Assembly (NCBI GenBank): GCA_900637705.1
Contig: LR134390.1
Span: forward strand, 434,001 to 498,000
Source of the DNA: Fusobacterium varium
GTDB taxonomy: Bacteria; Fusobacteriota; Fusobacteriia; Fusobacteriales; Fusobacteriaceae
DNA length: 64,000 nucleotides
Reading direction: 5' to 3'
The notes below the pieces were generated by a model. It saw only the letters and a program-made list of their open reading frames with translations, was not told the origin of the DNA and searched no databases. The position numbers and the translations under genes are program-made. How positions within the stretch are numbered: position 1 is the first letter of the stretch; the number at the start of each line of letters is the position of its first letter. Of this stretch, positions 15,170 to 27,349 are shown in pieces.

Positions 15170-16359
15170 ATGAATTTTATTTTTATTTCACCAAATTTTC
15201 CAAAAAATTATTGGAATTTTTGCAAAGGATTGAAAAATAATGGAATAAATACTTTAGCGATAGGAGATGAAGAATATTACAGTTTAACAGATGAATTAAA
15301 AAAATCTTTAAATGAATATTATAAAGTATCTTCGCTAGAAAATTATGATGAAGTATATCGTGCATGTGCATATTTTGCATATAAATATGGACATATAGAT
15401 TGGTTGGAATCTAATAATGAATATTGGCTTTTGAGAGATGCACAGCTTCGTACAGATTTTAATATTAATACAGGCCTCAAAAATGATAAAATAGCAGGAA
15501 TAAAATATAAGAGTATAATGAAAAAATTTTATGAAAAAGCTGGAGTACCAAGTGCTCGTTATCATATTGTAACTAATTATGAAGAAGGAAAAGCGTTTGT
15601 TGATAAAGTTGGATATCCTGTAGTTGTAAAACCTAATAATGGAGTAGGAGCAACTGCAACATATAAATTAATAAATGATGTAGAATTAGGATATTTTTAC
15701 AGAGATATTCCATCAGTTGAATATATTATGGAAGAATTTATAGATGGAGAATTATTATCATATGATGGTATAGCAGGAAAAGATAAAGAAATAATATTTG
15801 AAACAGCTCATGCATATCCTGTTCCTATAATGGATATAGTAAATGAACAGGCTGATGTAATGTATTATTCATATAAAGAGATTCCTGAAGATTTAAAGGA
15901 AGCTGGAAGAAAAGTAGTACAAGCATTTGATACTAACAGTCGTTTTTTTCACTGTGAATTTTTTAGACTTTTGAATGATAAAAAAGGTCTTGGAAAAAAG
16001 GAGATATAATTGGACTTGAAGTAAATATGCGTCCACCAGGTGGATATACTCCAGATATGATGAACTTTGCAAATGATATAGATGTTTATCAAATATGGGC
16101 GAATATGGTGGCATATAATCAAGGATATTTTGATGTACAATCTAGACCATATAATTGTGTATATGCAGCTAGAAGAGATAATCATAGATATGTTTATAGT
16201 AAGGAGGAAACCTTAGCTAAATATAAAGATAATATAGTAATGAAGGAAAGAATGCCAGATATATTCTCAATTGCCATGGGAAATGATATGCTTACTGCAA
16301 GATTCTGTAACATAGAAGAATGTTTTGAATTTATTAATTTCTATTTAAAAAAATATTAA
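15170..16359 (+). CDS. ATP-grasp domain protein (frameshifted)
   Basis: The N-terminal part resembles the pre-ATP-grasp domain. It is followed by YPVVVKPNNGVGATATYKL, the ATP-binding lysine loop, and EYIMEEFIDGELLSYDGIAG. The magnesium-binding end, EVNMRPPGGYTPDMMNFA, lies in another frame. Adding one A to the run at 15994-15999 joins the two parts into about 396 aa. ATP-grasp enzymes link a carboxylate to an amine or thiol through an acyl phosphate. Two alpha/beta-hydrolase esterases follow within 20 bases each, so the three probably make and process one small molecule or peptide. The substrate is unknown. AGGAGGGA precedes the ATG. Confidence 0.8.
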
Positions 16360-16377
16360 AATATAGGAGGTCATAAA

Positions 16378-17132
16378 ATGCATACAGCTTATTATAAAGA
16401 GTACAGTCATATATTAGAAAGAGATATGGAATTTGCAGTATATGGTCATAATGGAAAACCTTGTATAGTTTTCCCAGCACAAGATGGAAGATTTTATGAT
16501 TTTTTTAATTTTGGAATGGTAGATGCTGCTTCAAAATTTATTGAAGAAGGAAAGTTACAGCTTTTTGTGTAGATGGAATAGATTGGGAAAGTTGGTCACA
16601 AATAGGTGGCGATTATCATTGGAGAATAATGCAGCATGAAAAATGGTTTAATTATATTATAGAGGAAGCAATACCAAAATTTAGAGAAATTTATGGAGAA
16701 ACTTCTGGAGAATACTATAAAGGAAAATTTTTTACAACAGGATGCAGTATGGGTGCATATCATGCATTGAATTTTTTTCTTCGTCGCCCAGATATTTTTG
16801 ATGGAGTAATAGCTTTAAGCGGACTTTATCACGCAGGATATTTTTTTCCAAACTATAATAACGAAATAATTTATAATAATTCTCCAGTTGATTATATGAA
16901 AAATATGCCATGGAATCATTACTATTTGGACATGTATAGAAATTCAAAAATAATACTTTGTTGTGGACAGGGAAGATGGGAAAAAGAAGCTATAGAAGAT
17001 ACAAAGAGGTTAAAAGAAATTTTTAATCATCTTCAAGTACCAGTATGGACAGATTTTTGGGGATATGATGTAGATCATGACTGGCCATGGTGGAAAATAC
17101 AGTTTCCATATTTTTTAGATATAGTACTATAA
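16378..17132 (+). CDS. Esterase-family alpha/beta hydrolase (frameshifted)
   Basis: One added T in the run at 16562-16566 joins the N-terminal part to CVDGIDWESWS and the remainder, giving about 251 aa. The nucleophile elbow is GCSMGA (Ser about 124 in the corrected protein), and a His-Asp pair (DVDHDW) near the C-terminus fits the triad. It resembles the putative esterase (EstD/S-formylglutathione hydrolase-like) family. No signal peptide is present, so it acts in the cytoplasm. AGGAGG precedes the ATG. It is paired with a second, different esterase downstream. Confidence 0.8.
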
Positions 17133-17151
17133 TTTATAAAAGGAGCTGGCT

Positions 17152-17910
17152 ATGGTTTTAAAACATGAAATTTTTATTGAACCTTTTGATTTGAATAGAC
17201 TTTTACATATATATATTCCTGATAATATAAAAGAGGGAGAAAGATTTCCAGTAATGTATATGTTTGATGGACATAACTTATTTTTTGATTCAGATGCAAC
17301 TTATGGAAAATCTTGGGGAATAAAAGATTTTTTGGATAGCTCTAATACAAGGATAATGATTGTAGGAATAGAATGTAACCATGAAGGAAATAAAAGACTT
17401 TGGGAATTTTCACCTTATTCTTTTAAAGATAAATATTTTGGAAGTGTAAAAGGATATGGTAAAATATTAATAGATTGGATAGCAGATCATTTAAAACCTA
17501 TGATAGATGAAAACTTCCCAACACTTCCTGAAAGAAAATTTACTGGACTTGGTGGAAGTTCTATGGGTGGACTTATGTCAGTTTATGGAACTGCTATAAG
17601 ATCAGATATATTTTCTATGGGAGCTTGTTTGTCACCTTTTTATGAGCATATATTTAAAAAGTTAGTAGAGGAACTTTCAAAAGCTGAAGTAAATCCAGAA
17701 ACAAAATTTTATATTAGTTGGGGAAGATACGAAGTGCATTCTAAAAAGCAGCTAGCTGTAGAATCTGAAAAAAATCTTATTATAAGTAGAATACTTACAT
17801 TTAAAGGAGTTCAAGTATTTCCTCATCTAATGGTAGAAGGTGGACATAATGAGGCTTCTTGGGAAAAAGAAAATCTGATATGGATGACTGAACTGGGATT
17901 TATAAAATAA
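17152..17910 (+). CDS. Second esterase-family alpha/beta hydrolase
   Basis: This 252-aa cytoplasmic protein has YMFDGHNLFFD near the N-terminus, the elbow GGSSMGG (Ser137) and a C-terminal EGGHNEASW carrying the likely catalytic His. This is the pattern of the esterase-D/enterochelin-esterase-like superfamily. It starts 20 bases after the first esterase with AAAGGAG upstream, as the third gene of the ATP-grasp cluster. A role in hydrolysing an ester or peptide product of the ATP-grasp enzyme is inferred from neighbourhood only. Confidence 0.85.
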   Translation: MVLKHEIFIEPFDLNRLLHIYIPDNIKEGERFPVMYMFDGHNLFFDSDATYGKSWGIKDFLDSSNTRIMIVGIECNHEGNKRLWEFSPYSFKDKYFGSVKGYGKILIDWIADHLKPMIDENFPTLPERKFTGLGGSSMGGLMSVYGTAIRSDIFSMGACLSPFYEHIFKKLVEELSKAEVNPETKFYISWGRYEVHSKKQLAVESEKNLIISRILTFKGVQVFPHLMVEGGHNEASWEKENLIWMTELGFIK

Positions 17911-17930
17911 TATTAAATATGGAGGGGTAT

Positions 17931-18209
17931 ATGTATTATAGTATTTTTTTAGAAATGGAAAATAATCCTGAAATAAAGAAATGGCTCAATATGAATACTA
18001 AAGATGAAATTACTGAAATATTAAGAAAATTAAATGACAAGGAGATAAAAAAAGTACAAATAGTTGAAACTTCTATTGAAACTACTGGAGAGTATGAGCT
18101 TATAAAAAGATTCATTAAAGAAACTCAAATTTTAGGAGAAAAATTTTTTAATGAAAAATATCCTTTTTACTATGCGAAAGATATTACAAATGAAATTTTA
18201 GAAAAATAA
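17931..18209 (+). CDS. Small hypothetical protein at the end of the esterase cluster
   Basis: This soluble, charged protein of 92 aa begins MYYSIFLEMENN. I see no motif, membrane segment or signal peptide; it is predicted mostly helical. The ATG at 17931 follows GGAGGGG closely; an in-frame ATG at 17919 overlaps that site. It lies 20 bases after the second esterase on the same strand and just before a terminator, so it is likely the last gene of the cluster. I do not recognise the family. Confidence 0.6.
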   Translation: MYYSIFLEMENNPEIKKWLNMNTKDEITEILRKLNDKEIKKVQIVETSIETTGEYELIKRFIKETQILGEKFFNEKYPFYYAKDITNEILEK

Positions 18210-18220
18210 TAATGAGTATG

Positions 18221-18306
18221 AGAGGATGACTTACAGGGAGAAATACAATTTTAGAATTTTTTATTTCTAAAGTTTAGTCTAGCTTTTAGGTTGTTCTCTT
18301 TTTTTA
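18221..18306 (+). terminator. Branched terminator after the esterase cluster
   Basis: Outer arms 18221-18228 and 18292-18299 pair over 8 bases with wobbles. An inner stem, TTTAGAA/TTCTAAA (18250-18256, 18265-18271), lies inside, and a T-run follows. The same branched layout occurs at 56711-56780. Confidence 0.55.
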
Positions 18307-18329
18307 TTGAAAGGGGAGAAGAGGAAAAG

Positions 18330-19680
18330 ATGATACATCATTTGATAAAAAAATTATTTATGATTTTTTACATACCTGTTGCTGCTAATATTCCTTTGCT
18401 CATATATTGTTATTATAAGAATAATGGAAATTTTTGTTATCAATTTTAATTACTTTAATAATATTTATTTTATGGATATATCTTAATCTCTTTCCATATA
18501 GAAAAGAAGAATATGCAAGAAAACGATTGAGAATAATGATAGGTGGAAGAACTTTATGTTTTTATTCTTTTTATGGTCTTTTAACTCAAATATGTATAAT
18601 TATATTTCTATATTCTTTGTTAAGAGAAAAAATAGATGATAGTGAAATATTATGGCTCAATGGAGTATACGCTTTAGGAATAAATTTTTTTCTTTTTCTC
18701 AATGGAATTATTCGTATATTTTTTACTTCAAAATGGTTAAGTGTTAGAAAGAGAGTTCTGCTGATACTTACTGTTTGGATACCAATAATAAATATTTTAG
18801 TTCTTTGCTATATTTTAAGAATTATAAAATGGGAATATGAATTTGAATGTTATAAAGTTTCTTTGAGGGAAACAAGGGCAGAATCAGATATATGTAAAAC
18901 GAAGTATCCAATAATACTTGTACATGGGGTAGGTTTTAGAGATTTTAGACATTTTAACTATTGGGGACGGATTCCAAGAGAGTTAATGAGATATGGAGCT
19001 TCTATTTATTACGGAAATCAAGAAGCTTTTGGAACTATTGAATATAATGGAGAGGATATCAAGAAAAAAATATTAGAAGTAGTACAAGAAACTGGTTGTG
19101 AAAAAGTTAATATAATAGCACATTCTAAAGGTGGATTGGATTCACGTTATGCTATAAGTATATTAGGAATGGATAAATATACAGCTTCGCTTACAACTAT
19201 AAGTACTCCTCATAGAGGGTGTCTTTTTGTTGATAAAATGTGTAAATTACCTGAAAAACTTTATAGATTAGTTGCTAAATTTTATGATAATATTTTTAAA
19301 AAATTAGGTGATAAAAGACCAGATTTTTATGTTGCAACTCATCAATTTACTACTTATAATAGTAAAAAGTTCAATGAAAAAGTAATAGATTCTCCAGAAG
19401 TTTATTATCAAAGTTATATCTCTGTGATGAAAGACTGTTTAAGTGATATTTTACTTACTATTCCATATTTTTTATAAAAATTTTAGAAGGAGAAAATGAT
19501 GGACTGGTAAGCATTTCATCAGCTAAGTGGGGAAATTTTAAAGGAGTCATAAAAAATAAATACCATAGAGGAATATCTCATGGAGATATTATAGATTTGA
19601 AAAGACAAGACTACAAAGGATTTGATGTTATAGAATTTTATGTACAACTTGTTTCTGAATTAAAGAAAATGGGATTTTAA
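18330..19680 (+). CDS. Membrane-anchored triacylglycerol lipase-like hydrolase (two frameshifts)
   Basis: Three pieces join when one T is added to each of the runs at 18431-18435 and 19468-19473, giving about 450 aa. The first roughly 125 residues hold about four membrane spans. Then come LVHGVGFRDF (oxyanion region), the nucleophile elbow AHSKGG, the Asp-bearing GENDGLVSISSAKWG, and HRGISHGD with the likely catalytic His, in the order of bacterial lipases of the LipA type. The last two motifs lie after the second frameshift, so the shorter reading would lack part of the triad. GAGG precedes the ATG at 18330. It is a single gene between terminators. Confidence 0.8.
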
Positions 19681-19837: not shown

Positions 19838-22060
19838 TTATATTTCTTTTGTTTTTTCAGAAAGGTATCTGCTAGGACTCATTTCTTCTTTCCAGTCAGG
19901 ATCTGAAATATTGAAATTTTTTCCATATATTTCAAGAAGTCTTTTCAAAGAATTTCTTGGAATATAAGTTTCTATTCCCATAAATTTAGTTTCTTTCAAT
20001 GTAGAATTTGAAAGCTTATATGCTGAAATAATTCCATTTTTATCTTCTAAATAGCATATTACTTTATTGTCTTTTCTATCAAAAAGGAAGATTTCTATTT
20101 CAATTCCTTTATATTCATATTTGATATTTTTAAGTCCTTCATTTTTTAAACTTAATGAGGAAATTCTTTTAAATCCTTCATTTTCTATGTCTATTATAAA
20201 TTTAGGAATGAGCTCTTCTTTCATTATTCCAATATCAAAGTTAATATCATGTCCTATAAAGTTATTTTCTCTAATTTTTCCAAGTAATGTCCCAAATTCC
20301 AACCAATATTTTACACCAGTTTTTTGGGAAGTTTTATTTAATATTTCAAGAACTTCTTTCCCAGTTAAAAGTAAATTTTCACCTTGTTTTTCTTTCTTTA
20401 TTGAATCTTTTCTCTTTTTATTATAGCTTCTGTTTCTTATATATTTTGTTGAAAGATCAAAAATTATTTTGAAAAATATATTCACAAGAATAATCATTAC
20501 AGAGATTGCAGCAGCAGCTCCTATATCTCCAGCATCATTTTTACTTATCATCATTACAGAAATAAGCCTTGTTTTTGTTGTATAAAGGAAAATAACTGCT
20601 GAAATAGTTATCATGGAATTTATAAAATAATATGAAAAACTTTCAATAATAGAATCTATAGATAAAGGAATTATAACTTTAAAAATAGTTCTATACCATG
20701 ATACCCCCATTATATTAGATATAGTTTCATATTCACTGTCTAAAGTCTTCAATCTTGCAGTTATAGTTAAAAAAGGTGTTGCAAAGAAATGAACTATGTT
20801 TGCAAGTATAATTATTCCAAAGCTTCCATAGAGAAAATTTAGAATATTATCTTTAGAGTTAAAGAAGAAAATATATGCAAGTCCTATTGTTAAACCAGGA
20901 AGAGCATTGGGAAGTATAGAAAGAAAATATCCTATTTTTCTGATAATAATATATTTTTTTTCTCTTTCAATCATATATGCTGCAAGGAAACATAGAATAG
21001 TTCCAAGTATTGCAGAAAAAATTGAAACAAGAATACTATTGCCAAATATTTTCCAGATACTTTCACCCATTATTGTAAAATTATATGATTTAAAAGATAA
21101 AGTCATATCATAAGGCCATGTTTTTACAAGAGAGGCTAAGATAACTATTATAAAGAAAGAGATTATAACCAAACTTAAAATATAATTAAAAAATTTAAAA
21201 AAGATATCTCTTATTTTATTTTCCTTTATAATATATTTAGTAGACTTTGAATCTATTTTAGAACTCTTACTTTTGATGATTATATCAAATATAAAAGCGA
21301 GAAAAGCAGGAATTATAAGTAGTATTCCAACAGCTGATCCCATAGAGAAATTTTGTTGTCCTATTACCTGTTTAAATATATCAGTAGCAAGAACATTATA
21401 ATTTCCACCAACTACTTTTGGAGCTCCAAAGTCTGTAAAACTTAAAGTAAACCCAGAGAAAAAGCAAGTTATTAGTGTATATTTAATATTGGGAATAGTT
21501 ATTGTAAAAAATTGGTTTATTTTGCTTATTCCCATTATTTCTGCCATTTCATATTTTCTATAATCTTCTGAATCAAAAGCTAGGACAAGCATAAAGAAAA
21601 GCACTGGAAATATAAAAATAGTTTCTGCAAAAACTATTCCCCAGAATCCATATATAGAAATTGAAAGATTAAGAGCTTTTGTTATAATTCCCTGTCTTCC
21701 AAAAAGGTATATAAGTGCAATACCATGTGTCATAGTTGGAGAGAATAAAGGTAAAAGAGCAATTCCTTTTAAAAGAGATTTTCCTCTTATATTACTTCTA
21801 TTTATTCCATATGAAAAAAGAAAAGCAAGAATTATTGTAAAGATAGTTACAGTTATAGAAACTGCTAAACTATTAGTAAGAGAACTTGCTGTAACTGGAC
21901 TGCTAAAATACTCAGCAAAGTTTTTTAAACCTATATAACTACCATTCTTTCCTTGAAAAGCTTTTATAAAAAGACTAAATATAGGAAAAATTATGGAAAT
22001 AACAAGAAAAAGAACTAAAACTAAAGACAGGATTATTTTTATTAATTTATCTTTTTTCAT
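19838..22060 (-). CDS. aepW: Double-length AEP-type ABC permease fused to a LicD-like transferase domain
   Basis: The 740-aa protein has two permease halves of about six spans each (roughly residues 1-275 and 290-550), the arrangement of Fe3+/AEP-type importers. A hydrophilic domain follows from about residue 555. That domain has the LicD signature: EFGTLLG (residues 588-594), then HDINFD with acidic residues at 605 and 609, and near the end EIYGKNF...DPDW. LicD proteins transfer phosphocholine or similar groups from CDP-activated donors onto glycans. The domain is predicted cytoplasmic. No start codon for a separate LicD gene exists at the junction, so the fusion appears real. AGGAG precedes the ATG. 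Confidence 0.85.
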   Translation of the reverse strand: MKKDKLIKIILSLVLVLFLVISIIFPIFSLFIKAFQGKNGSYIGLKNFAEYFSSPVTASSLTNSLAVSITVTIFTIILAFLFSYGINRSNIRGKSLLKGIALLPLFSPTMTHGIALIYLFGRQGIITKALNLSISIYGFWGIVFAETIFIFPVLFFMLVLAFDSEDYRKYEMAEIMGISKINQFFTITIPNIKYTLITCFFSGFTLSFTDFGAPKVVGGNYNVLATDIFKQVIGQQNFSMGSAVGILLIIPAFLAFIFDIIIKSKSSKIDSKSTKYIIKENKIRDIFFKFFNYILSLVIISFFIIVILASLVKTWPYDMTLSFKSYNFTIMGESIWKIFGNSILVSIFSAILGTILCFLAAYMIEREKKYIIIRKIGYFLSILPNALPGLTIGLAYIFFFNSKDNILNFLYGSFGIIILANIVHFFATPFLTITARLKTLDSEYETISNIMGVSWYRTIFKVIIPLSIDSIIESFSYYFINSMITISAVIFLYTTKTRLISVMMISKNDAGDIGAAAAISVMIILVNIFFKIIFDLSTKYIRNRSYNKKRKDSIKKEKQGENLLLTGKEVLEILNKTSQKTGVKYWLEFGTLLGKIRENNFIGHDINFDIGIMKEELIPKFIIDIENEGFKRISSLSLKNEGLKNIKYEYKGIEIEIFLFDRKDNKVICYLEDKNGIISAYKLSNSTLKETKFMGIETYIPRNSLKRLLEIYGKNFNISDPDWKEEMSPSRYLSEKTKEI

Positions 22061-22068
22061 AAAATCTC

Positions 22069-23034
22069 CTAAATACTATTTTTTTCATTTAACTTAATAT
22101 AAAGAGAATCATTGATTTTGAGATTCAGTTTTTCTTTTTCTTTAGATAGTATATCAATATAGATATTATCCCCAAAAAGTTCTAATGTTATTCTATAAAA
22201 AGCACCTCTAAATTCAATGTTTTTAATAGTTCCTCTATGTGCATCTTCTTTTTCTTCTATAAAATATTCTATATCTTCAGGTCTTATAGTATAGATATCA
22301 TTATTTTTATCAGTGATAAAATTTATTTTTCCTATAAAATCAGCCACAAATATATCTTTTGGTTTACTATATACTTCTTCTGGAGTTCCAAATTGAACTA
22401 TTTCTCCACCATTGATAATAGCAATTTTATCTCCCATTGTAAGAGCTTCCTCTTGATCATGAGTTACCATAATTGTAGTTATTTTTAATTTCTGTTGAAT
22501 TTCTCTTATTTCTTTTCTTAAAGATTCTCTTACTTTTGCATCTAGAGCTGAGAGAGGCTCATCAAGTAATAAAATATTAGGTTCAAGAGCCAGAGCTCTA
22601 GCTAATGATACTCTTTGTTGCTGGCCACCACTCATTTCATCGGGATATTTAGAAGTTATGTGATCAAGTCCTACCATTTTAAGGACTTCCATAATTTTGT
22701 TTTTTCTTTGATGTTTATCTTTTATTTTCTTTTTTAATCCGTATTCTATATTTTCAAATACTGTCATATTTGGAAAAAGAGCATATGATTGAAATACCAT
22801 GCTTAAATTTCTTTGTGAAGGTTCCAAAGTAGTTATTTCTTTTCCATTAACCAAGATACTTCCAGAATCAAGTTTTTCAAGTCCAGCTATTATACGAAGC
22901 AAAGTTGTTTTACCACAACCACTTGGTCCTAGAAAACATATAAATTCTCCTTTTTCTATTTCTAGATCAATGCCTTTTAGAACTTCTACTTTATTAAATT
23001 GTTTTTTTACTTTTTTTATAGCTAAATAAGGCAT
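22069..23034 (-). CDS. aepV: AEP-type ABC transporter ATP-binding protein
   Basis: This is a 321-aa ATPase with Walker A GPSGCGKT, Q-loop, signature MSGGQQQR, Walker B ILLLDEPLSALD and switch His in VTHDQEEA. A C-terminal TOBE-like regulatory domain starts with IRPEDIEYF. It powers the fused permease with the lipoprotein SBP. I chose the ATG at 23034 because AAGGAG precedes it; an in-frame ATG at 23052 overlaps the SBP gene. Family members transport spermidine, iron or phosphonates; the phosphonate assignment comes from the neighbouring SBP. Confidence 0.9.
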   Translation of the reverse strand: MPYLAIKKVKKQFNKVEVLKGIDLEIEKGEFICFLGPSGCGKTTLLRIIAGLEKLDSGSILVNGKEITTLEPSQRNLSMVFQSYALFPNMTVFENIEYGLKKKIKDKHQRKNKIMEVLKMVGLDHITSKYPDEMSGGQQQRVSLARALALEPNILLLDEPLSALDAKVRESLRKEIREIQQKLKITTIMVTHDQEEALTMGDKIAIINGGEIVQFGTPEEVYSKPKDIFVADFIGKINFITDKNNDIYTIRPEDIEYFIEEKEDAHRGTIKNIEFRGAFYRITLELFGDNIYIDILSKEKEKLNLKINDSLYIKLNEKNSI

Positions 23035-23035
23035 T

Positions 23036-24055
23036 TTATTCTCCTTTACCATATCTAGTTTCCCATTTTTTAAGTAATCTTTCTCTGTTATCTGAAGCCC
23101 ATTTGAAATCTATTTTAGCCAGTTTTTCTTTAAAGTTTGTTGGATATCCTTCAAGTTTTGTGTTTATACCTTTATATGAAACTAATCCAATATTTTTTGA
23201 ATATTCTTCCATCATTTTTTGTGAAAGTGCCCAATTAATAAAATCAACAGCTTCTGGTTTAATTGTATTTTTATTTACAAGAGCAATTCCTTCCATATCC
23301 CAGCCATATCCTTCACTGGGAAGAATAGTAACTATAGATTCATTAGTTTTTCCAAGTCTTATACTTTCACTGTCCATTCCAACTCCAATTAGTTGTTCTC
23401 CCTGCATAGCCATTTTAACTGGAGCACTTCCAGAATGAGTATATTGAGATATATTTTTGTGTAGTTGATCCATATATTCCCATGCTTTTTCTTCACCCCA
23501 GATACTTATCCAACCTAATATAGTAAGATAACCAGTTCCAGAAGAAGCAGGATTAGGCATAACTATTTCTTTAGAATATTTCTCATCAAGAAGGTCTGTA
23601 TATGAAGCAGGAATAGGTAAATTTTTAGCTGCAAGTTCATATTTATTAGCTGTGATAGCAGAAGTCCAAGCAGTCATCCCTGTCCATTGTGGTTTTTCAC
23701 TAATAGAATCAATATAAGCAGGATCAATATTTGTAAGCCATTCACTTTTTAATTCAGCTAATCTTCCTTGCTTAGCAAGATCAATAAGGTTTATACTTGC
23801 CATGCCCCATAAGACATCAGCAACAGGATTATTTCCTTCAGCAATTACTTTAGCAGCAATAGCTCCTTGAGAATCTCTTATTATATTTAGTTCAACATTT
23901 GGAAAATCTGATTTATACATTTCAATATAATGGTTCAGATATTCCTCTTCAAGACCAGTATAAACATTTAAAACAGTTTTATTTTCTTTACTTCCACATC
24001 CAAAAAGAAATGCAGAAAGAATAAAAAGTATAGAAATTTTAAATAGTTTTTTCAT
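23036..24055 (-). CDS. aepX: 2-aminoethylphosphonate-binding lipoprotein (AepX/PhnS2-like)
   Basis: This 339-aa protein has a lipoprotein signal peptide with the lipobox cysteine at residue 20 (LFGC). Mature blocks closely match the AEP-binding family as I know it: NVYTGLEEEYLNHY, NIIRDSQGAIAAKVIAE, ADVLWGMAS, IVMPNPASSGTGYLTI, ISQYTHSGSAPVKMAMQGE and GWDMEGIALV. It would capture AEP in the periplasm and deliver it to the AepVW importer. Ferric-iron binders share the fold but not this set of motifs. The gene precedes aepV and aepW and follows two nucleotidyltransferase genes in one transcription unit. Confidence 0.85.
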   Translation of the reverse strand: MKKLFKISILFILSAFLFGCGSKENKTVLNVYTGLEEEYLNHYIEMYKSDFPNVELNIIRDSQGAIAAKVIAEGNNPVADVLWGMASINLIDLAKQGRLAELKSEWLTNIDPAYIDSISEKPQWTGMTAWTSAITANKYELAAKNLPIPASYTDLLDEKYSKEIVMPNPASSGTGYLTILGWISIWGEEKAWEYMDQLHKNISQYTHSGSAPVKMAMQGEQLIGVGMDSESIRLGKTNESIVTILPSEGYGWDMEGIALVNKNTIKPEAVDFINWALSQKMMEEYSKNIGLVSYKGINTKLEGYPTNFKEKLAKIDFKWASDNRERLLKKWETRYGKGE

Positions 24056-24057
24056 AA

Positions 24058-24785
24058 TTAATTTTCTCCTTTTTCTAATAGTTTAGGATAAATAGTTTCC
24101 ATCACTCTGTTTAATTGAAATTCATCATCAATTTCAGACCAAATGATACCATCTACTCTTTTACAGTTAATTTTTCTATCTTTTGCTATTTTTTCCATAC
24201 AATATTCATAACCTAATTTGAGATTTTTCTCATCTTCATATTTTTTAAACATAAGTTGACATAATTCATTAGATAGTTTTTGTAATCCTGTAAGTTCTCC
24301 ATATTCTCCTTTAATTTCAAAGAGATTGAAAGTAAGTTTTCCAATTCCATTATCTATTATCTCAAAGTAATAATCATCAGACATCTTTTTATCTTCTGAT
24401 AAAAGAATTGTATCTTTTTCAGGAGTATTTATTAGTATATCAAGACAATTTTTTCATATATAAGATCTCCTTCTAAAAGAAGAATGTCATCATTGCCAAT
24501 TAATTCTTTAGCACAATAGAAACTTCCCATACTGCTTGTATTAGCATAATTATTATTTTTTATTGTTATAATGCTGTTATATTTTTTTTTAAGAGGTTCA
24601 AAAAAATAATCTAGGTGTCCAGTAACCAGTATTATTTTTTTAATACCTGAATCTAATAATTTCTCTATTGATCTTTCAATAAGAGATAACCCATTTATTG
24701 TTAAAAAAGGTTTAGGAATTTCGTCATTGGTTACTCCTCTCAGTCTTGTTCCCATACCTGCCACAAGTATTACAGCTGTTTTCAT
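24058..24785 (-). CDS. LicC/PntC-like cytidylyltransferase (frameshifted)
   Basis: The N-terminus has the canonical nucleotide-binding signature VAGMGTRL...IPKPFLTING and an Asp in LLEGDLIYE typical of LicC and PntC enzymes. Adding one base to the run at 24449-24454 joins LIYEKNCLDIL to the C-terminal half, giving about 242 aa, normal for the family. LicC makes CDP-choline and PntC makes CMP-AEP. Beside an AEP importer and a LicD-like domain, CMP-AEP is the more likely product. The start overlaps the stop of the upstream NTase gene by 4 bases, which shows coupling. Confidence 0.82.
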
Positions 24786-25717
24786 AAATCTTTCTCCTTT
24801 TTAATTAAACTCTTTAATATATTATTCTTTATATATTCATATTGTTTTTGATTATCTATTTCCCCCCATAATTTTTCTTCTGAAGATATACACTTTAAAT
24901 CTGGAAAAATATTTTTATCTAAAAAACTATATTCGTAAAAAAATAATTTATTTTCTATCTGAGTGAATTTATCCAGCATTTTTAAATATGAGTTATATTT
25001 TAATTTACTGATTCCTATAAGCTCCCCTGAAATTTTTTCAAGACTATATTTTCCTTTGGAGATATTTAAAAGTTCTCCATTTTTTATAGTAACATAGAGA
25101 GAATCTTCCTTATTTGAAACAGAAGTATCAATCAGTGTTACATTTTTTTCTTTAGAATTTAATAAAAGTGGAATTAAAGTTTCTTCAAAAACAAGATCTC
25201 CTTCTAAAAGAATAAAGTCTTCTTGTAAATATTTTCTTAAAAGATAAAGAGAGTACATATTTCCTGTAGTTTTATATTTTTTATTTTCTATAATTTTGAT
25301 ATTTTGATATTTTTTTAATAATTTTTTATAAAATTCTGATTTATATCCAGAAGCAATTATTATTTTTTCAATATTGTATTTTGATAAAAGTTTTATTGTT
25401 CTTTCAATGAGTGTGGAATCAAATATCTTAAGAAAGCCTACAGGTTTATCAAAATCCAAAGTTTCTCCAGCAGCTAAGATAACAGCAACTTTTATAGAAT
25501 TTTTGTTGGTTAAAAATTCTTCACCAGAAGGTGTAATGAAGTATTTTATTTTTCTATAGGAGATAATTTCTTTGGTAAGGCAACCATCATTTAAAAGAGA
25601 ATTGATATATTTATTGACAGAACCAAGAGAAATATTTAGATATTCAGATATTTTTCTTTGACTGATTATATTATTTTCATGAATAAGAGATATGATTTTT
25701 CTCTTTATTTGAATCAC
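24782..25717 (-). CDS. Winged-helix protein fused to a divergent nucleotidyltransferase domain
   Basis: Residues 1-65 form a winged helix-turn-helix (QRKISEYLNISLGSVNKYINSLL). Residues 75-311 form a sugar-phosphate nucleotidyltransferase domain with LEGDLVFEETL. The signature loop is degenerate: AAGETLDFDKPVGFLKI replaces the GxGxRL...PK pattern. It may therefore sense ligand rather than catalyse, though activity is possible. It is the first gene of the AEP operon and probably its regulator. The listed GTG start overlaps the AGGAGGTG ribosome-binding site. The codon at ideal spacing is ATA, so the true start is uncertain. Confidence 0.75.
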   Translation of the reverse strand: MIQIKRKIISLIHENNIISQRKISEYLNISLGSVNKYINSLLNDGCLTKEIISYRKIKYFITPSGEEFLTNKNSIKVAVILAAGETLDFDKPVGFLKIFDSTLIERTIKLLSKYNIEKIIIASGYKSEFYKKLLKKYQNIKIIENKKYKTTGNMYSLYLLRKYLQEDFILLEGDLVFEETLIPLLLNSKEKNVTLIDTSVSNKEDSLYVTIKNGELLNISKGKYSLEKISGELIGISKLKYNSYLKMLDKFTQIENKLFFYEYSFLDKNIFPDLKCISSEEKLWGEIDNQKQYEYIKNNILKSLIKKEKDL

Positions 25718-25733
25718 CTCCTAATATTAAAAA

Positions 25734-25773
25734 TGAACGATAATATTTTTACACTGTGAACGATTTTTGTCAA
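25734..25773 (-). promoter_or_regulatory. Promoter and TGAACGAT direct repeats of the AEP operon
   Basis: On the minus strand TTGACA (25768-25773) is followed after 16 bases by TAAAAA (25746-25751). Two copies of ATCGTTCA (plus-strand TGAACGAT at 25734-25741 and 25757-25764) lie 23 bases apart, about two helical turns. One copy is inside the promoter spacer and one downstream of the -10. This fits autorepression by the winged-helix protein. Confidence 0.6.
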
Positions 25774-26002
25774 GAATAAAAAACTTACAATTTTTAATTT
25801 TAAAATTAAAGGTATAAAAAGATAGATAATTATTTTTTTAATATCGAACAAATTATTTAAGAGATAGTGGGAGATAAACCTTAAAAAATAAAAGAAGTAT
25901 GTAAAAAAGTACGAACAAAAAATATTTTTATTTGAAGGTGTTAATTTACATCAAATAATGTTAATATATAAACTGAGAAAAATTTGTCAGGAGGATATTG
26001 TA

Positions 26003-27349
26003 TTGGAAAGTATAAGAACCGTAATTGATTTTGTAAATAACTTGTTGTGGGGTAAAAATATTCTTGTAGTGATGCTTATAGGAACAGCAGTTTATTTTAC
26101 TTTTAAAACAAGGTTTATGCAATTTAGATTATTTGGAGATATAATAAAAATATTAAAAGGAAATGGAGAAGAGAAGAAAGATGGAATAAGTTCTTTAGAA
26201 ACTTTTTTTCTAGGAACAGCATGCAGAGTAGGAGCAGGAAATATTTCTGGAGTTGTAGCAGCAGTATCTATTGGAGGACCAGGAGCCCTTTTTTGGATGT
26301 GGCTTGTAGCTCTACTTGGAGCAGCAACATCTTTTGTTGAATCAAGTCTTGCAGTAATGTATAGAACAAAAATAAAAAAGGGAGTATATCAAGGGGGAAC
26401 TCCTTGGATTATAAAGAATAGACTCAATATGAAATGGTTGGGAGCTATATATGTATTAGCATCTATTATTTGCTATATAGGAGTAATCCAAGTAATGTCG
26501 AACTCTGTAACTGAGTCAGTTGTAAGTGCATATGGTTTTGATTCTAAAATAATAGCTGTGATATTAGCAATTGTAGTTGGTTTGATTATATTTGGAAAAA
26601 GTAAAAAAGATAAAATAATATTAGCACTGAATAAAATAGTTCCTATAATGGCAGTTATGTATCTTTTAGTAGTAATTTATGTTATTATTACTAATATAAC
26701 AGGTATTCCAGCAATGATTGGAAACATATTTTACCAAGCTTTTGGAGGAAAAGAATTTCTAGGAGGAACAGTTGGTGGAATAATTATGCAAGGAGTAAGA
26801 AGAGGATTATTTTCTAATGAAGCAGGAAGTGGAAATTCTAATTATGCAGCAGCAGTAGTTGATATAGAGGAGCCAGCAAAACAAGGAATGGTACAAGCAT
26901 TAGGTGTTTTTGTGGATACACTTGTAATATGTAGTGCTACAGCATTTGTAATTCTTTTAGCAGATACAAAGGTGATAAATGGATTTACAGGAATGACTCT
27001 TTTCCAAGAATCGTTAAAGAGTCATATAGGTTGGATAGGAATACCATTTACTGTGATAGTATTATTTTTCTTTTCTTTGAGTACAATATTAGGAGTTACA
27101 TATTATGGAAAAAATGCTATAAATTTTATAAGTACAAAGCCAGTTATAAAAGAAATATATCATATAATAGTTGTTCTTATGGTATATATTGGTGGAATAG
27201 AACAGAATTTTTTTGTGTGGTCTTTAGCAGATTTTGGATTAGGAATAATGACTGTAATTAATATAATCTGTATTATTCCTATTTCTGGAGAGGCTTTGAA
27301 TGAATTAAAAAAATATGAAATAAAACTTAAAAATAACAAAAGAGCTTAA
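26003..27349 (+). CDS. AGCS-family sodium:alanine/glycine symporter
   Basis: This polytopic protein of 448 aa shows AGCS features: ETFFLGTACRVGAGNISGVVAAVSIGGPGALFWMW, VRRGLFSNEAGSGNSNYAAA and a C-terminal SGEALNELKKYE. It imports a small neutral amino acid with Na+ across the inner membrane. I chose the TTG at 26003 because AGGAGG lies 8 bases before it and the protein then begins at the family's usual position; an upstream in-frame ATG at 25958 lacks a site. It converges on the two-component genes with a shared terminator that overlaps its stop codon. Confidence 0.9.
   Translation: MESIRTVIDFVNNLLWGKNILVVMLIGTAVYFTFKTRFMQFRLFGDIIKILKGNGEEKKDGISSLETFFLGTACRVGAGNISGVVAAVSIGGPGALFWMWLVALLGAATSFVESSLAVMYRTKIKKGVYQGGTPWIIKNRLNMKWLGAIYVLASIICYIGVIQVMSNSVTESVVSAYGFDSKIIAVILAIVVGLIIFGKSKKDKIILALNKIVPIMAVMYLLVVIYVIITNITGIPAMIGNIFYQAFGGKEFLGGTVGGIIMQGVRRGLFSNEAGSGNSNYAAAVVDIEEPAKQGMVQALGVFVDTLVICSATAFVILLADTKVINGFTGMTLFQESLKSHIGWIGIPFTVIVLFFFSLSTILGVTYYGKNAINFISTKPVIKEIYHIIVVLMVYIGGIEQNFFVWSLADFGLGIMTVINIICIIPISGEALNELKKYEIKLKNNKRA

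Follow-up and report, generated by a model that had tools for sequence, protein, structure and literature searches.

A predicted import-fed phosphonate-tailoring operon with two degenerate enzyme domains in Fusobacterium varium

Overview of the operon

The Fusobacterium varium DNA analysed here (contig LR134390.1, positions 434,001 to 498,000; 64,000 nucleotides, hereafter the window) contains a putative operon for phosphonyl tailoring (Pnt) that would be fed by import of 2-aminoethylphosphonate (AEP). We read it, with a probability of about 0.6, as a phosphonate version, in an anaerobic bacterium, of the lic operon that imports choline, in which two former enzymes would serve as sensors. Its five genes are co-directional on the minus strand at 19838-25717. 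They encode, in order, a winged helix-turn-helix (wHTH) protein with a pseudo-PntC domain (24782-25717), a predicted AEP cytidylyltransferase, PntC (24058-24785), a PhnS2/AepX-like substrate-binding lipoprotein (23036-24055), a PhnT2/AepV-like ATP-binding cassette (ABC) ATPase (22069-23052), and a PhnU2-type double permease (residues 1-550, 20411-22060) that continues into a catalytically degenerate LicD-fold domain (residues 556-740, 19838-20395) to form one protein of 740 amino acids (aa).

A preliminary description made from the sequence alone had named these five parts, in this order and on one strand, and had proposed that the cell imports AEP, activates it and attaches it to a surface glycan by means of the LicD-like domain. 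All five parts are present in the open reading frame (ORF) list, and the family profile searches that it suggested matched PhnS2/T2/U2, LicD, and HTH_24 with NTP_transf_3. The import-activate-decorate idea is largely supported by the importer, by PntC, and by the lipopolysaccharide (LPS)-core setting of the operon in a genome of another genus (G076); the choice of the LicD-like domain as attaching enzyme is not.

In the proposed pathway, the lipoprotein would bind AEP (or a close analogue), which would enter through PhnU2 of the PhnS2-T2-U2 transporter. PntC would join it to cytidine monophosphate (CMP), and a transferase of the LicD type or of another kind would transfer the AEP moiety of CMP-AEP to a glycan of the cell surface, most likely the LPS core or O-chain. 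Because AEP already bears its phosphonate, no kinase would be needed, and because it is scavenged, phosphoenolpyruvate (PEP) mutase would be dispensable as well. The wHTH-pseudo-PntC protein would bind AEP or CMP-AEP and act on GTTCA-type boxes to control the operon; the pseudo-LicD domain would report the cytoplasmic pool of CMP-linked product to the permease, tuning import.

The operon encodes a PntC-type cytidylyltransferase

Judged by its sequence, the nucleotidyltransferase (NTase) of the operon is a PntC, not a LicC, and AEP is its predicted substrate. The N-terminal half matches the PntC-AEPT structure 6pd1 at 6.4e-28, compared with 5.6e-15 for LicC (1jyk), and PntCs stand apart from six LicCs in a phylogenetic tree (support 100/100). 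In Tde-PntC, R15 and K25 are catalytic and E104 and E196 contact the AEP amine, where LicC has Asp (PMC6697681). R15, K25, E104, D106 and E196 are all retained in the four intact pntC copies of relatives. The GXG(T/S)RX4-8PK loop that carries R15 and K25 reads GMGTRLRGVTNDEIPKPF in the N-terminal half in the window and is found in the same four copies; the amine-contacting Glu residues lie within LLLEGDLIYE and YEY/YES in these Fusobacteriota proteins, whereas most LicCs carry IDAD and WDD at those positions.

Beyond the phylum, the closest PntCs (47, 43 and 41% identity) come from three Clostridia, in each of which pntC heads a pntC-ppm-ppd-phnW operon whose ppm product has the EDKxxxxxNS motif of PEP mutase. 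No PhnU2 match was found in the one clostridial genome of this type that was checked. Conversely, a profile search of 12 genomes from the window's genus found no PEP mutase, the same model scoring a genuine PEP mutase at 418.7 bits. Because of these two observations, we infer that AEP synthesis in the clostridial group has been replaced by import in the group to which the window belongs. The earlier proposal that AEP is scavenged, rather than made or broken down, therefore stands with respect to synthesis; it fails with respect to breakdown, owing to a phnX/phnW operon elsewhere in the genome (see below).

A contig scan with a PntC query returned four loci, one of them useful. Two other PntC-like sequences were observed. 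A second, degenerate copy in G076 (L055:6977-7648, contig C14) has KMSTKL as its loop and YGE instead of YEY, and lacks a stretch; it has no transporter neighbours and is perhaps retired. In a genome of the window's genus that lacks the operon (G010, contig C205; L082:3956-5770), a protein of 604 aa whose N-terminal domain is PntC-like (30%) is encoded two genes from a canonical LicD.

The preliminary description placed the second gene among canonical LicC/PntC-like NTases. Its family is upheld, as PntC; its single open frame is not, for pntC is present as two ORFs (24432-24785 and 24058-24384). Alignment with three relatives places the split at a single-base deletion in a homopolymer near position 24448 (within 24443-24453). 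In three genomes of the same genus (G007, G002, G001) and in G076, pntC is one gene of 242-247 aa (L019, L020, L021, L054), and it is under strong constraint in the relatives, with a ratio of nonsynonymous to synonymous substitution rates (dN/dS) of 0.03-0.08. Compared with the same three relatives, the window also lacks single bases near 16000, 16567, 18432 and 19470. These losses all lie beside homopolymers, either within unrelated genes or at them; comparable one-base insertions were not seen inside genes. Because of these four further deletions and the lack of matching insertions, the pntC frameshift is likely a sequencing or assembly error, which fits the sequence better than decay does. 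In the region 15170-19477, genes for ATP-grasp, esterase and lipase-like proteins are split or truncated by such homopolymer deletions. Caution is warranted with the ORF calls of this record.

Transporter and a second predicted AEP importer

The transporter is assigned by family to the PhnS2/T2/U2 type, and AEP uptake is predicted. The permease portion scores 640.6 bits against PhnU2 (TIGR03262), above the cut-off of 593.25; the lipoprotein and the ATPase match PhnS2 (TIGR03261) and PhnT2 (TIGR03265) a little under the cut-offs, and phnS2 is the closest family of the binding protein in both sequence sets used. These matches support the importer of AEP type that had been put forward.

A second importer is encoded in the window's genome (G000) in a phnS2-phnT2-phnU2-phnX-phnW operon at 757-763 kb of contig C1, where phnX (phosphonatase) and phnW (AEP transaminase) score well above their cut-offs. 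The statement that no transaminase or phosphonatase is present is thus correct for the tagging operon and incorrect for the genome, which by its gene content can also degrade AEP. In a tree, fusion-type permeases form a separate clade (100/100) from the phnX-linked catabolic permeases; phnX adjoins every catabolic permease checked and none of the fusion-clade members that could be examined. The permease-LicD fusion occurs in 5 of 98 Fusobacteriota genomes, four from the window's genus and G076, and pntC lies beside the transporter in all five. Among 621 plasmid records, no PhnU2-like match covered 80% of the fusion. Fusion-clade transporters without a LicD domain were observed in two genomes, at L022 (G022, contig C30) and L088 (G079); neither pntC nor phnX was found adjoining them.

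A degenerate LicD-fold domain on the permease

The C-terminal extension of the permease has, according to profile and structure-model comparisons, a LicD/FKRP fold. Pfam LicD matches residues 579-617, over its first 40 positions, at 26.7 bits (cut-off 22.6), rising to 31.8 bits when the domain is searched alone, and a profile of the domain matches FKRP at 0.0019. The structure model of the domain (mean predicted local distance difference test score [pLDDT] 75.5) finds FKRP with CMP (6kal) as the best Foldseek match in the PDB (E 8.5e-4). With VIA-align 2 it aligns to the nucleotidyltransferase fold, including LnuA (Z 9.6, root-mean-square deviation [rmsd] 4.5 over 132 residues) and FKRP (Z 7.6, rmsd 3.9 over 133).

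In FKRP, D360, D362, D364 and D416 are each essential (PMC6965139). The set of three essential metal-binding acids plus D360 is incomplete in the fused domain, which has HDINFDIG (YDVNFNIG in G076) where the canonical LicDs of these genomes have WDDDIDIG or a close variant. All five fused copies have Asn in place of D362, and the G076 copy has Asn in place of D364 as well; Glu occupies the position of the third acid, as it does in some canonical LicDs. Approximately 70 residues of the canonical LicD C-terminal half are missing. At the same time, no other part of the operon has a dN/dS as low as that of the domain (0.015-0.074). These sequence data are best explained by a conserved role without catalysis, and we propose that the domain senses the CMP-linked product and tunes import. 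Thus, of the suggestion that a LicD-like domain attaches AEP, the fold is retained and the attaching activity is not, and a plain active transferase was demoted as a candidate for the same loss in five of five copies. A search of viral contigs did not recover the domain, and 398 genomes of the clostridial phylum gave weak partial matches alone. As far as we have searched, no ABC permease with a LicD-fold domain has been described.

The wHTH-pseudo-cytidylyltransferase

The first gene had been described as an NTase; its sequence is that of a pseudo-enzyme. The 311-aa protein (HTH_24 and NTP_transf_3; best PDB match PntC 6pd1, 1.5e-29) has a deleted GxGxR loop, and K25 is lost in all copies. D/E104, D106, K153, E196 and the metal-binding Glu-x-Asp are mostly retained, and dN/dS is 0.05-0.12. 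The structure model has a mean pLDDT of 55.7, with the wHTH part alone usable.

The protein belongs to a wider family. Relatives from Clostridia and from three other Fusobacteriota genomes are proteins of about 535-640 aa in which this NTase domain is followed by a LicA choline kinase, and they are encoded in lic operons with LicB and LicC. The wHTH-pseudo-NTases form one group within the PntC clade (98/99). The protein in the window has no kinase domain, which AEP would not need. We propose that it is a regulator that senses AEP or CMP-AEP. The residue at position 104 (Glu or Asp) was considered as a marker for AEP or choline among the pseudo-NTases and was dropped, as fusobacterial lic copies have Asp and clostridial lic copies have Glu.

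Promoter block and a putative operator

Upstream of the operon, a predicted promoter/operator block on the minus strand (25730-25775) comprises TTGACA, a 17-nt spacer, AAAAAT, and two CGTTCA boxes (25757-25762 and 25734-25739). The block is near-invariant in an alignment of four species whose flanks differ, and its exact 29-base core occurs once in the window and never in shuffled sequences. Promoter-like matches across the region number 45, compared with 42.5 by chance, so the conserved block alone was used as promoter. Two further boxes on the same strand, of sequence GTTCG (25912-25916 and 25845-25849, within 25845-25917), are conserved in the same alignment and lie towards a divergent gene. 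In total, the 240 bp upstream contain four GTTC[AG] boxes against 0.43 expected (fraction of shuffles 0.0005). The divergent gene (25958-27349), encoding a Na+:alanine symporter, shares this GTTC-box intergenic region and keeps its position in all four species.

Similar sites precede related genes. GTTCA lies 28-29 nt before three fusobacterial lic wHTH genes, and a 15-bp palindrome, GTTCA-N5-TGAAC, is found upstream of two clostridial genes for wHTH-pseudo-NTase-LicA proteins, of one licB and of two pntC operons. The genomes of six Clostridia contain 23 such palindromes, of which 12 are located no more than 10 kb from a pnt or lic NTase gene, where 0.22 would be expected; the palindrome was first spotted in two of the 12 sites, which makes the probability approximate, but that choice has no bearing on the remaining ten. 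Chance accounts for the total per genome, and it is the placement that stands out. At the pnt and lic loci of the Fusobacteriota genomes, half-sites alone were found and the palindrome was not. These positions suggest an operator-like palindrome common to phosphonate and phosphocholine tagging loci. A small S-adenosylmethionine (SAM) methyltransferase gene near clostridial pnt (L058:18253-18813 and L071:12914-13474) also has GTTCA-N5-TGAAC upstream in both genomes, and might reflect AEP methylation or mere regulon membership.

A broader scheme can be suggested tentatively, at slightly less than even odds. DNA-binding pseudo-cytidylyltransferases would sense CMP-AEP or CDP-choline (or their precursors) and control both tags through GTTCA-N5-TGAAC in Clostridia and GTTCA-type boxes in Fusobacteriota, and the pseudo-LicD domain would gate the importer by the activated product, both sensors being dead copies of pathway enzymes.

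Surface setting and the transferase

In G076 the genes are arranged as GT9 heptosyltransferase, LPS-kinase-like, GT2, pntC, phnS2, phnT2, phnU2-LicD, GT2 and DegT aminotransferase, with no wHTH gene. Because the operon sits here inside an LPS-core locus, LPS is the likely target, and this setting is evidence independent of the window. In G000, a canonical LicD is encoded at C1:2227292 in an LPS/glycan locus with GT9-like genes and is perhaps the transferase. No choline pathway was apparent in that genome: no LicC-type match outscored the pntC of the genome, and, the wHTH gene aside, no LicA-type fusion was found. A general rule by which a canonical LicD encoded elsewhere acts as transferase is possible for G000, G001, G002 and G007 and was rejected for G076, where none was found.

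Weighing of alternative explanations

Several observations weigh against an import-fed tailoring operon. The pntC reading frame is interrupted in the record of the window. K153 of Tde-PntC, which is partially conserved and whose K153A variant is less than 10% active (PMC6697681), is Phe or Ser in the Fusobacteriota PntCs, although LicCs lack Lys there too. PhnS2 (372.7 bits, cut-off 392.75) and PhnT2 (439.8 bits, cut-off 457.7) fall slightly below the curated cut-offs, and the nearest binding proteins of known structure carry annotations for binding of iron or, in one case, of pyridoxal phosphate. Permeases of G022, G079 and G036 belong to the fusion-type clade without a LicD domain, and no pntC was found beside the transporter where looked for. 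Finally, a genome search of G076 found no canonical LicD, so the transferase there could be the fused domain. That domain might indeed be an active transferase, using CMP-AEP made at the membrane to move AEP to a lipid-linked glycan in the same complex. Its fold, with a CMP-bound form as best match, its constraint (the strongest of the operon), its status as the sole LicD-like sequence found in G076, and the retention of D605 and an acidic third position all agree with this. We nevertheless consider it unlikely given the Asn substitutions at positions where FKRP needs each of its acids, and the shortened C-terminal half.

The substrate might instead be the near-isostere phosphoethanolamine, or a small phosphate ester, with CDP-ethanolamine or a similar donor serving the same kind of surface tag. 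One bridging atom separates phosphoethanolamine from AEP, a difference to which sequence is blind, and the pyridoxal-phosphate binder among the solved relatives would suit a phosphate ester. Yet the binding protein is nearest to phnS2, whose catabolic copy in the genome is linked to genes for AEP transaminase and phosphonatase, and PntC groups with ppm-linked enzymes; this substrate seems quite improbable to us. Purely nutritional import, in which the transporter feeds phnX and phnW elsewhere and the NTases are passengers, could draw on the complete degradation operon in the genome. However, the degradation operon is served by an importer of its own, which belongs to a separate clade, and the constancy of pntC beside the transporter in every fusion-bearing genome (dN/dS below 0.08 where measurable), together with the LPS context in G076, makes such a role very improbable indeed. 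An import-fed tailoring operon thus remains our preferred reading.

Implications and comparison with known systems

Surface phosphonate tagging in bacteria is mostly inferred in genomes from PEP mutase. If AEP is scavenged and activated as proposed, surface phosphonates would occur in organisms that PEP mutase surveys miss, and the tag would depend on environmental supply, like phosphocholine. The regulator family would offer a testable account of the control of zwitterionic tags, and its operator would allow regulons to be read from genomes. The new points are that an importer takes the place of PEP mutase, that two pseudo-enzyme domains are conserved, and that phosphonate and phosphocholine loci share an operator-like palindrome. 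We found no report of importer-fed Pnt tailoring, or of AEP on Fusobacterium LPS, in the openly accessible literature, most subscription papers lying outside the search.

The operon resembles the Pnt pathway (Rice et al. 2019, PMC6697681) in having a PntC-type enzyme with the same catalytic and AEP-contacting residues in a surface-tailoring context. Known Pnt clusters make AEP by Ppm-Ppd-AEPT, whereas this operon has an AEP importer, with no Ppm found in the genus, and adds two pseudo-enzyme parts. With the lic operon (LicA, LicB, LicC, LicD) it would share the logic of import, activation by cytidine triphosphate (CTP) and transfer to a glycan, and it has in common the wHTH-pseudo-NTase module of fusobacterial and clostridial lic; unlike lic, it lacks a choline kinase and LicB, uses an ABC importer, has PntC for LicC, and carries its LicD-like part in degenerate form on the permease. 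The transporter has the same three components as AepXVW/PhnS2-T2-U2 (PMC8316502), and its PhnU2 passes the equivalog cut-off; it differs in being linked to activation rather than degradation, and in its C-terminal LicD-fold domain. That domain shares with the FKRP/LicD transferases (PMC6965139), a family that uses CMP-linked donors, the nucleotidyltransferase fold and the FGTLLG..R motif, but has lost the D362 equivalent (and that of D364 in G076) and has a shortened C-terminal half.

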